Below, piece after piece: positions 40,601 through 55,600 of a stretch of DNA of 64,000 nucleotides. Below the pieces are notes generated by a model. That model did not search any database. It saw only the letters and a list, made by a program, of their open reading frames with translations, and had not been told where the DNA came from. The number at the start of each line of letters is the position of its first letter. Position 1 is the first letter of the stretch. The DNA comes from Apostichopus japonicus. Taxonomy: Eukaryota; Echinodermata; Holothuroidea; Aspidochirotida; Stichopodidae. The position numbers and the translations under genes are program-made. The stretch spans positions 1,302,001 to 1,366,000 of the forward strand of contig NC_092568.1 in NCBI RefSeq assembly GCF_037975245.1, read 5' to 3'.

Positions 40601-43600
40601 GTTTATATGGGTTTTTTTTAAAAGTCTGAAAAATTCCTTCAATGAGAATTGGCTACACCATATATATTTTTCATACCTTCGCAAAACATCATGTGTTTAT
40701 CTGCATGTAGGTCATGGGTTCATGTATCAAATTTACAGACATGGTACCTTGGATTTAGCGAAATGAAGTGAAATGTCTTCTTTTGTTTTTTTGTGCAAAT
40801 ATGACCAGTGGAGATTTGCAAGAACAGGCTTATAGTGTGTCAACCTGCGTTATTAAACCAGTTCCTTTCACAACATTGAAAGACGGGCGGTATACTCACA
40901 GCAGGTATAAATTCGAAAATGGAACATGATACTTTTCCAAGTGTTTTGTTGTTATTGTATGTTGCACATTCTATTATTAGTAGTGTCTCACTGGATTATC
41001 ATTGGAGTATACAGGGTATATAAGCTGTAGTATGATACACGTATTGGCCTATATATATGTAGCGATGATATCCCCTTCTTATCTCTGATTTCCTCAGGAA
41101 TTGTGTTATCATGCTTCCGGCGCACGTATGTATGGTACAGTTGAGCCCTAATTTATTCAATAAAATTATAGTTGCGAAAATATTTTACCGCAAACAATTT
41201 TGCCGTTGAATTTTGTTTACATCATATACGTATATACGTATATTTTACGCCGTATGTCTTGTATGGATATAATTACTGGATAATCGGCTGGGATATGATA
41301 ACATTGTGCCAACTCGTAGTACAGTGTCGCAGAAGTTTAATGCGCTTAAAAGAAATGATGAGAACGTTTGGAAAGTGTTTGAAGAGATCTCTCCATCATA
41401 ATTATAGTTACAAACGAACCTGTCAATTTTGCAATCCGTTCGGTTAATTCGGACACTGATGTGATAACTTCATCCAATAGTTTCATATATACATGCACAT
41501 TAGGTTTGGCCTGTATAGGCCAATTGACGGTTGCGGGCCTCTGCAAGCTAGCGTTTATGTAATATTATTGTAATGTAACGGATTAGGCATGTAGAATATA
41601 TCGACGTATGGCCGAAAATATACGGTGTGGAATTTGTGTCCACCGTAGCCAGGAATTTGAGAGGAGGGGTGGGGGAGCACATTTTGCGATTGATATGGGA
41701 GGAGGGGTCTGAGGGGAGTGGTGTTCCCCTCCCCTTTGAGATATTTTTGAACAATTGAAGGTCCTTGGATGCGATCTGGTGCAATTTTTTGCTAGTTTCA
41801 TCATTTTTATATGATATCATATTATCAGCAGATTTTGTTTCCTGTTTGAATTCTTTTACATGTTCTGTTACATATTATATCAGAAAGACAAACCAAGCGC
41901 TCTTTTACAATTTTTCCAGTAGGATGATTCTTGTGTATTGTCCAAAGTCTGGACTTTAATATATTTGACGAACTTAACTGATATACAATATAAACTTTCA
42001 TATTTTGTAAGACAGCCAGATGTGCAGTGGCCTAAAAACAAATATCGTTATCGCAGTGTATTAGCAGTGTAATAATTATTTATAGGAAGTGCATATCACG
42101 TACGAATGCTAGCTTAGCTTCATAACATGCTGTTCGTGCAACAACTTAGGACGAATCATAGAAAGGATGAGAACGAACGTTGTCGACGTCTATGGCAAGC
42201 CATGTGGGACAAACACTGCATAATATATCCGCGTATTAATTCGAATATATACGCGTATTAATTCGAATATACATGTGTTGTATAGCCTACATGTGTAAAG
42301 TTTCGCGTTTTGAAGCGATCTCGCGAGCCCGCCAAAACATTTATCTTTGGTACATGTACACAGCAAGAGCGGAAAATGTTTTTTCGTGTATATTCTAATT
42401 AATCCGTGCATATATTGGATTTAATCCCCATATGTATTTTATTTAATACGTGCATATATTCGAATTAATACGTGTATATATTCGACTTAATACGTGTATA
42501 TATTCGAATTAATACGTGTATATATTCGAATTAATACGTGTATATATTCGAATTAATACGCGGACATTTTTAAGCCATATGATTGGCTAATAATATATAC
42601 GCGTATATATTCGAATTAATACGCGTATAAATTCCAATTAATACGCGGATATATTATGCAGTGTTTGTCCCACGTGGCTTGCCATAGACGTCGTTGTGCA
42701 TACGGTTCGTGACACTCCATCGAGTGCGGTTAGGTAGGCAATATATATTTTATAACGCAGTGGCCAACTGTAGGCCTGTAATAGGCTAACCTGAATGTTA
42801 CTACGATTATAATCGAGTTAACGGAGCTGACGAGTATTCAAGATCAAAAGAGCACTGACAAATAACCATGCTAAAAAAACAACAGTTTTAACATTTTTTT
42901 CGTCGCTCCCCTGCACCCCCTGGCTACGTCCCTGGTGTCCACGCGTATAATTATCTATGGAGTGGTGGAAATGTTGCGTTGCAAATACCCACCTGAAGTT
43001 AGCAGGATATTCTGCTAGCAGGATATTTGGTTGAAGCAGGGTTGCCAGTTTTCCGGATACATTGTCGGTCAAATTGGGACCAAAAAAAAAGGCCAAATTT
43101 GTATTTAATATATTTTTAGGTAATTGAACCTTTGTGTATGCATACATGGCCGATTACAGCCAAATTGCATAACCTAAACATATTTATGCCGGACAAAACA
43201 TACTGGATTTTTGTAGATGCGACCCCTGGCCCCGTATCAGGACACATCTTCACCCTCTCATTGCCGTCCTTATGCCCAAAGAGGGCCCTATTCTCTGGAT
43301 AGTCGTAATATCAGTATTGTACTAAGACTGTCTAATTAAAGTCAAATTGCATAAACTGAACATATTTATGCCGGACCAAACATACTTGATTTTCATAGAT
43401 ACGACCTCTAGCTCCCCAACAGAATATATTTTGACCCCCTCATTGCCGCCCGTATCCCCATAAAAGGGCCCTTTTCTATCGATAGTCGTAATATCAGTAT
43501 AGTACAAAGACTGGCTAACTACAGTCAAATTGCATAGACTGAACACATTTATGCCGGACCAATCATACTGGATTTTCATAGATACGACCTCTAGCTCCCT

Positions 43601-52600: not shown

Positions 52601-55600
52601 TGATATTTCGACTATCGAGAGAATAGGGCCCTTTTTGGGGATACGGACGGCAATGAGGGGGTCAAAATGTATCCTCTTAGGGAGCCAGGGGTCGTATCTA
52701 TGAAAATCCAGTATGTTTGGTCCGGCATAAATATGTTCAGTCTATGCAATTTGACTATAATTAGCCAGTCTTATTACAATACTGATATTACGACTATCGA
52801 GAGAATAGGGCCCTCTTTAGGGATACGGACGGCAATGAGGGGGTCGAAATCATTCCTGATACGGGGCCATGGAGAGTATCTATGAAAATCCAGTATGTTT
52901 GGTCCGGCATAAATATGTTCAGTTAATGCAATTTTACTGTAAATAGCCGGTCTTAGTACAATATTGATATTACGACTATCGAGAGAATAAGGCCCTCTTT
53001 GGGGATACGGACGGCAATGAGGGGGTCAAAATGTATTCTGTTAGGGTGCCAGAGGTTGTATCTATGAAAATCCAGTATGTTTGGTCCGGCATAAATATGT
53101 TCAGTCTATGCAATTTGACTATAATTAGCCAGTCTTAGTACAATACTCATATTACGACTATCGAGAGAATAGGGCCCTTTTATGGGAATATGGACGGCAA
53201 TGAGGGGGTCAAAATGTATTCTGTTAGGGAGCCAGGGGTCGTATCTATGAAAATCCAGTATGTTTGGTCCGGCATAAATATGTTCAGTTTATGCAATTTG
53301 ACTATAATTAGCCAGTCTTAGTACAATACTGATATTACGACTATCGAGAGAATAGGGCCCTCTTTGGGGATACGGACGGCAATGGGAGTGTCAAAATGTA
53401 TCCTGTCAGGGAGCCAGGGGTCGTATCTACCAAAACCCAGTATGTTTGGTCCGGCATAAATATGTTCAGTCTATGCAATTTGACTATAATTAGCCAGTCT
53501 TAGTACAATACTCATATTACGACTATCGAGAGAATAGGGCCCTTTTATGGGAATATGGACGGCAATGAGGGGGTCAAAATGTATTCTGTTAGGGAGCCAG
53601 GGGTCGTATCTATGAAAATTTAGTATGTTTGGTCCGGCATAAATATGTTCAGTTTATGCAATTTGACTATAATTAGCCAGTCTTAGTACAATACTGATAT
53701 TACGACTATCGAGAGAATAGGGCCCTCTTTGGGGATACGGACGGCAATGGGAGTGTCAAAATGTATCCTGTCAGGGAGCCAGGGGTCGTATCTACCAAAA
53801 CCCAGTATGTTTGGTCCGGCATAAATATGTTCAGTCTATGCAATTTGACTATAATTAGCCAGTCTTAGTACAATACTCATATTACGACTATCGAGAGAAT
53901 AGGGCCCTTTTATGGGAATACGGACGGCAATGAGGGGGTCAAAATGTATTCTGTTAGGGAGCCAGGGGTCGTATCTATGAAAATCCAGTATGTTTGGTCC
54001 GGCATAAATATGTTCAGTTTATGCAATTTGACTATAATTAGCCAGTCTTAGTACAATACTGATATTACGACTATCGAGAGAATAGGGCCCTCTTTGGGGA
54101 TACGGACGGCAATGGGAGTGTCAAAATGTATCCTGTCAGGGAGCCAGGGGTCGTATCTACCAAAACCCAGTATGTTTGGTCCGGCATAAATATGTTCAGT
54201 TTATGCAATTTGACTGTAATTAGACAGTCTTAGTACTATACTGATATTACGACTATCGAGAGAATAGGGCCCTCTTTGGGGATACGGACGGCAATGAGGG
54301 GGTCAAAATGTTTCCTGCTACGAAGCCAGTGGTCGTATCTATCAAATTCTAGTATGTTTGGTGCGGCATAAATATGGTAAGCTTATGCAATTTGACTCTA
54401 ATTAGCCAGTCTTAGTACAATACTGATATAACGACTATCGAGAGAATAGGGCCCTCTTTGGGGATACGGACGGCAATGGGAGTGTCAAAATGTATCCTGT
54501 CAGGGAGCCAGGAGTCGTATCTATGGAAACCCAGTATGTTTGGTCCGGCATAAATATGTTCAGTCTATGCAATTTGACTATAATTAGCCAGTCTTAGTAC
54601 AATACTCATATTACGACTATCGAGAGAATAGGGCCCTTTTATGGGAATACGGACGGCAATGAGGGGGTCAAAATGTATTCTGTTAGGGAGCCAGGGGTCG
54701 TATCTATGAAAATCCAGTATGTTTGGTCCGGCATAAATATGTTCAGTTTATGCAATTTGACTATAATTAGCCAGTCTTAGTACAATACTGATATTACGAC
54801 TATCGAGAGAATAGGGCCCTCTTTGGGGATACGGACGGCAATGAGGGGGTCAAAATGTTTCCTGCTACGAAGCCAGTGGTCGTATCTATCAAATTCTAGT
54901 ATGTTTGGTGCGGCATAAATATGTTAAGCTTATGCAATTTGACTCTAATTAGCCATGATAATTTCATGATAAACCGTTATAACTTGTTATTAAAAATGAT
55001 CACTTGACCACCCATCATATGAATCAGTGCTACGTATTATTTGAAACAGTACACAAGTTAGTGTTTTCTGTGGTTTTATTTTTGCAAATCTAGCGTTTAT
55101 TTGTCACATGTCGCTGGTCACCCTGGCAACAAAAGTTTTCTCATTGACTTTGTACACGCTGCAACTCCCAAATTTCCACGTTGACTTTGTACACAGAATA
55201 TCCTGCTAGCAGAATATCCTGCTAACTTCAGGTGGGTGTTGCAAATGCATATATGAAAGCAGCGTTACGGTGTAACCATTTCATGATCAACAGTGATAGT
55301 ATACAGGCTATGTATATTATTATACTTCACTTACGTCTGTGGTTTTCTGTAGAAGGGGATTCCCGGCTCATGGGCACTATCAAGTATCACACCTTCAATA
55401 ATATCACACCTTACACAGCAAAGATTAAACATATCACGTTCTCAGCTTCGTGCATTAATTCACACCTTCATCGATGACTAACTGTGTTGCCCTAATGTCC
55501 TTTTGTGACTTTTCTAACAATTTTTGACCTATATATATTAGCTGAAATCACTGAGTACTGGACCTGTAAAACCTGTATGGCAGATACATGATAGAGCGGG

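Follow-up and report, generated by a model that had tools for sequence, protein, structure and literature searches.

A probable foldback-type DNA transposon carrying opposed arrays of a 182-bp satellite in the sea cucumber Apostichopus japonicus

Does a satellite that lies in two long, opposed arrays travel as part of a transposable element, or did it arise where it now stands? The question is raised by a stretch of the genome of the sea cucumber Apostichopus japonicus (NCBI RefSeq assembly GCF_037975245.1, contig NC_092568.1, positions 1,302,001 to 1,366,000 of the forward strand), which was analyzed over its whole length of 64,000 nucleotides and is referred to below as the window, with positions counted from its first letter. 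An earlier, sequence-only reading had proposed a complete foldback-type insertion here, with identical 41-base inverted ends, an identical 9-mer outside each of them, and two arrays of one 182-bp satellite in opposite orientation inside. Each of these structural claims is borne out, and the resulting segment of 12,251 bp (42987–55237) is very likely a mobile-element insertion. In our favored reading, to which we assign a probability of about 0.75, the segment is a single inserted copy of a cut-and-paste DNA transposon of foldback type that was non-autonomous and depended on a transposase acting in trans, most likely from the Mutator group that includes Rehavkus.

The ends of the segment are intact. 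The terminal inverted repeats (TIRs), located at 42987–43027 on the forward strand and at 55197–55237 on the reverse strand, are identical at 41 of 41 positions. Immediately outside them lie the two copies of a direct repeat, GTTGCAAAT, at 42978–42986 and 55238–55246 (both on the forward strand), which a letter-by-letter check found to match exactly. The length of this presumptive target-site duplication (TSD) is exactly 9 bp, as the adjoining bases do not match on either side, and given the base composition the chance that two fixed positions carry the same 9-mer is 6 × 10⁻⁶. The same 9-mer occurs elsewhere in the window once on the forward strand (at 4452) and nowhere on the reverse strand. 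Across the 50 bp of TIR and TSD there are 0 differences, an outcome with a probability of 0.08 at 5% divergence. A 16-bp motif, near-palindromic by eye, is repeated head to tail in the TIR in about two copies; Tandem Repeats Finder calls the 16-bp repeat at the right end (55194–55224), where the motif is kept for 3 bases beyond the 41 bp, whereas the left end diverges there.

Exact inverted pairs of 24-mers, counted with the arrays masked and with simple or low-complexity 24-mers left out, are found at three places only in the window, one of them being this TIR pair. The second place involves a dispersed repeat (18.4/59.6 kb), and the third is a small inverted repeat (42.2/42.6 kb). The former is an inverted pair of one repeat that is ∼80% identical between its copies (18429–18789 and 59430–59787). 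The latter is itself foldback-like, with arms of 88 bp at 96.6% identity (42184–42271 and 42606–42693) and AT-rich 22-bp tandem repeats inside, and only ∼290 bp separate it from the giant element's left end.

Between the TIRs, Tandem Repeats Finder reports 26.4 copies of the 182-bp unit on the left (43153–47968) and 21.0 copies on the opposite strand on the right (51122–54955). For comparison of the units, 27 were cut from the left array (L01–L27) and 21 from the right (R01–R21). With its edges included, the left array spans 43147–48117 on the forward strand; L26 and L27, at its inner edge, are diverged, and decayed satellite, the remnant of a 28th unit, runs on to 48117. The right array, at 51122–54955 on the reverse strand, is followed inward by 264 bp of other DNA and then by a 73-bp remnant on the same strand (50785–50857) that spans a unit junction (alignment score of 44; the best of 50 shuffles scored 18). 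Of the inverted pairs reported from the arrays, the longest measures 1,286 nt at 92% identity. When one left unit was used as the query, no match in the window was found outside 43153–48030, 50785–50833, and 51122–54949 at E values up to 10⁻³. The outer edges of the two arrays (43147 and 54955) start at nearly the same phase of the unit, and in both arms the resemblance to the unit extends ∼6 bp outward from unit position 1 before it is lost, with all 6 of these bases matching on the right and 4 of the 6 on the left.

The most informative new result concerns the relationships among the units. Mean identity between units is 0.901 within the left arm (L01–L25), 0.906 within the right, and 0.893 between arms (L26 and L27 are omitted from these means), and the closest relative of a unit lies in its own arm for 46 of the 48; the exceptions are L01, which is closest to R05, and L02, which ties between two left and two right units. 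Within each arm, blocks of units have been copied: L07–L08 are identical to L20–L21 and L05–L06 are 98–99% identical to L18–L19, while R10–R12 equal R15–R17 and R02 equals R06. Both arms nevertheless hold the same two subtypes, A and b. Subtype A comprises six left units (L05, L08, L18, L21, L24, and L25) and four right units (R12, R17, R20, and R21), and its branch has a support of 100/97 in a tree of 47 units, L27 being left out. Among 45 units compared column by column (L02–L25 and R01–R21, thus without L01, L26, and L27), nine alignment columns separate the 10 subtype A units from the remaining 35, and all nine fall inside a 27-column stretch. A tree in which one branch divides the left units from the right ones is rejected (its log-likelihood is lower by 40.5; approximately unbiased test, p = 0.0004), with the qualification that the groups for this test were chosen with knowledge of the first tree. 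Two independent amplifications of the arms are thereby rejected. Because both arms hold the same two subtypes and the two-sided split is rejected, older unit variation is common to both, through either descent from one mixed array or exchange of units between arms, and the arms were reshuffled separately after they came to share subtypes A and b. Subtype A contains four arm-diagnostic columns. Its members include L24–L25, just outside the diverged L26–L27, and the innermost right units, R20–R21. A branch with a support of 100/98 pairs two divergent units, L01 and L26, which lie close to opposite edges of the left array; unequal exchange is expected to leave divergent units at array edges.

These differences between the arms bear on the quality of the assembly. 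Near-identical units with exact multi-unit blocks are prone to mis-assembly, and opposed arrays could in principle be produced if satellite reads were joined wrongly or inverted in error, or by a collapsed haplotype. We consider such an artefact very improbable, as the two arms are unequal in length and do not agree in the order of their units, in the units at their edges, or in some variants specific to one arm. Distinct spacers and TIRs are also present at both ends, and a 9-bp TSD would not result. The exact lengths of the arrays, on the other hand, may be wrong.

A much smaller TIR element could also have inserted first, with the satellite arising or inserting inside it at this locus and the second arm forming by inverted duplication in place. 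Similarity of the TIR and of both spacers to the 182-bp unit is no better than in shuffled sequences, which rules out a unit derived from the TIR, as in the Drosophila element Tetris, and leaves an origin of the satellite within the element out of sight, as this history would have it. The divergence of the arms also gives no firm date for the insertion, the 50 unchanged bp of TIR and TSD still being 8% likely at 5% divergence. However, two subtypes are present in both arms and the arms have diverged further since, yet TIR and TSD are unchanged, so that an origin in place would require the element to have stayed where it is for a long time while its ends remained intact. We regard it as improbable. 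The same absence of differences weakly suggests, through this single short comparison of sequence, that the arms may be older than the insertion; that the satellite travels with the element is likely, judged from one copy.

Under the favored reading of a transposon mobilized in trans, a transposase supplied from elsewhere would recognize the 41-bp ends, with the repeated 16-bp motif as its probable binding site, and the element would have inserted through a 9-bp staggered cut. The motif copies could thus be putative transposase sites, by analogy with proposals made for the TIR repeats of Galileo and Tetris. The arms would descend from one array already mixed for the two subtypes, or would once have exchanged units, and each would later have grown, shrunk, and homogenized on its own by unequal exchange. 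In the core, either a transposase would have been lost or the core as a whole replaced, leaving the other repeat DNA now present there.

Long inverted arms of tandem repeats, the opposed 182-bp arrays, together with terminal inverted repeats of 41 bp and a TSD of 9 bp, place the element in the foldback structural class, and the length of the TSD, which follows the transposase, points to the Mutator group including Rehavkus. P superfamily elements such as Galileo have a THAP transposase and TSDs of 7–8 bp, and the duplication here is exactly 9 bp; Merlin elements are compared next: their TSDs measure 8–9 bp. In the portions of the published accounts on which this and the following comparisons draw, a survey of Mutator-like elements (MULEs) gives TSDs of 8–11 bp for these elements as a whole, a range that includes the exact 9 bp found here. 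For Rehavkus the survey describes a 9-bp TSD, TIRs of 26–400 bp, a minisatellite before the 3′ TIR, a PHD-finger transposase, and hosts among arthropods and annelids, and the introduction of a 2026 survey of arthropod MULEs also places Rehavkus within the MULEs. The sea cucumber element agrees in its TSD, its 41-bp TIR, and the satellite next to the TIR, which it has at both ends rather than before the 3′ TIR; a PHD-finger transposase was not recognized in this copy, as expected for a non-autonomous element. A large, non-autonomous foldback of Rehavkus or Mutator type is the most likely assignment. Mobilization by a transposase of a different group, for example that of the P superfamily in a Galileo-like form or of Merlin, is unlikely but has something to recommend it: Galileo also has long TIRs, with ∼210-bp repeats in its subfamily F, long TIRs are called a convergent trait in the Galileo paper, and this copy offers no recognized transposase by which to decide. 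The Galileo paper, however, mentions 7-bp sequences at copy ends, whereas a TSD of 9 bp fits Mutator and Rehavkus.

Drosophila FB and sea urchin TU are foldback elements whose tandem-repeat arms are built of short units, and the sequence-only reading had gone on to call arms built of ∼182-bp satellite units over 12 kb unusual. The view that foldback arms with units of satellite length are unprecedented is not supported, in the light of three elements. Rehavkus-1_TC of Tribolium castaneum, described with the satellite TCsat23, is a 9.5-kb element with a 164-bp satellite in its inverted termini; it resembles the present element, by description, as a DNA transposon of ∼10 kb with arrays of satellite-length units in inverted termini, and differs in having mostly 5 and 8 monomers of 164 bp where we find 27 and 21 units of 182 bp. 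The TCsat23 paper leaves open the order in which long arrays and transposon-borne repeats arose. Tetris (TIR-220) of Drosophila virilis is a non-autonomous foldback with ∼220-bp units in its TIRs, a TSD of 8–10 bp, and no conserved open reading frame (ORF), and has been suggested to belong to Mutator. Allelic Tetris copies carry 3 versus 4 units; arrays of TIR-220 reach 66 units and are said to have been amplified within Tetris, which gave rise to the satellite. Complete Tetris TIRs reach 1,735 bp and include an outer flanking domain of up to 866 bp, with 37 bp in common with the unit. The sea cucumber element has, in contrast, a 41-bp TIR, spacers unlike each other, and no similarity of the TIR to the unit, so that the sharing of sequence between unit and terminal flanking domain seen in Tetris is absent, and its long arrays sit in a copy with both ends and a TSD. 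The third, Galileo, combines long TIRs with independent TIR dynamics and ∼210-bp tandem repeats in subfamily F, but these number two or three, in TIRs of up to 1.26 kb, and 7-bp end sequences are mentioned. Tm1 of Meloidogyne, of a Mutator/Foldback family, likewise has composite TIRs of tandem repeats, a TSD of mostly 9 bp, and non-autonomous forms; it differs in its repeats of 13–15 bp and asymmetric 7-bp end motifs. Drosophila and sea urchin foldbacks receive brief mention in the Tetris paper. Both the architecture and the spreading of a satellite by a transposon are therefore already in print, and the present element is a large new example. Among the papers listed by literature searches we recognized none as a description of it, which cannot show that none exists; a search for papers on TU listed none. 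Exact stretches of TIR and unit had no match in collections of viral contigs and genome contigs, nor did the left end in a plasmid collection; these collections are non-animal and say little.

Several observations weigh against the reading of the segment as one transposed unit of this kind. The left spacer between TIR and array (119 bp; 43028–43146, forward strand) and the right spacer (241 bp; 54956–55196, reverse strand) align with a local score no better than that of shuffles, whereas similar spacers would be expected if whole ends had simply been duplicated in inverse orientation. Mirrored unit order between the arms is not above chance, the inner 8 pairs being matched by 21% of 5,000 random pairings, so that arms made as unit-by-unit mirror copies are unsupported, and subtype b has 0 arm-diagnostic columns. 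No transposase was recognized, as no convincing Pfam match of any kind was obtained among 37 ORF pieces from 47969–51121 (at least 45 codons) and from the two spacers (at least 30 codons), a search that a badly decayed transposase could escape; the best match, to an unrelated family, had an E value of 0.014. Finally, the reading is drawn from one copy. In the right spacer, 54966–55126 has a 75% identical relative at 13996–14181, which fits replacement of the spacer or an insertion there. That the outer edges of the arrays start at nearly equal phase despite unlike spacers would make sense if both arms once had the same edge and one spacer, or both, was later replaced.

The core (48118–50784) contains dispersed-repeat DNA and no recognized transposase; its segment 49928–50238 is 82% identical to 15503–15822. 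The relatives of the right spacer and of the core lie only 1.3 kb apart. On the reverse strand of the core, a stop-to-stop ORF of 178 codons (49987–50523) resembles, by eye only, the C-terminus of a non-LTR (long terminal repeat) retrotransposon reverse transcriptase. It has no Pfam, NCBIfam, or convincing PDB match and is probably a nested fragment. Two ORFs that look reverse transcriptase-like by eye do not match each other, and a search of the window against Rfam gave 0 matches at gathering scores.

Outside the element, an uninterrupted ORF of 664 codons (18918–20912, reverse strand) appears by eye to be Mutator transposase-like with a SWIM-like end, its catalytic acids apparently replaced, so that it is perhaps domesticated. 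It has no Pfam match at an E value of 0.1 and one weak, unrelated NCBIfam match, and a structure model from the single sequence was useless (mean predicted local distance difference test score, pLDDT, of 33). The ORF is bracketed by a pair of inverted repeats, 53 and 51 bp long and 79% identical (18804–18856 and 23895–23945). The arms of this pair resemble the TIR of the giant element no more than shuffles do, and a search there with the first 20 bp of that TIR gave no match with up to 6 mismatches. We draw no link between this ORF and the element.

The element also appears to sit within a transporter gene. Among ten window ORFs that were scanned, exon-like matches to the OATP transporter family were found on the reverse strand at 61729–62607, 60505–60921, 58907–59305, and 39622–39972, and the element lies between the last two. 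The profile ranges of these flanking matches, 281–351 and 331–396, are consecutive with an overlap of 21 positions. Because they follow on from each other, the element likely lies inside one OATP intron, in agreement with the placement in a transporter-gene intron first proposed, although a scan of ten ORFs could miss a small exon between the two matches. Arms in such a position could give rise to long double-stranded structures in the pre-mRNA. Elsewhere in the window, exon-like ORFs with a Death domain and a ZU5 domain (5680–6366 and 11022–11609, reverse strand) possibly belong to one gene, which we take to be perhaps of UNC5/PIDD type.

The arms of ∼5.0 and ∼3.8 kb, enclosed by intact ends, are larger than those in the complete Rehavkus-1_TC, Tetris, and Galileo elements as described in the portions of those accounts used here. 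We suggest tentatively, and at somewhat under even odds, that the family moves multi-kilobase satellite arms from site to site, the arms being old, passed on through transposition, and homogenized anew and separately in each copy, and that it has seeded the satellite genome-wide. If this is true, the element is a vehicle for the satellite and not a transposon that merely supplies a template. If other copies exist, the two arms would constitute an internal record of satellite evolution on a mobile carrier, in which the shared subtypes date the arms and the arm-specific block copies date later change, and with such a record one could ask whether long arrays are moved whole or grow back following every insertion.

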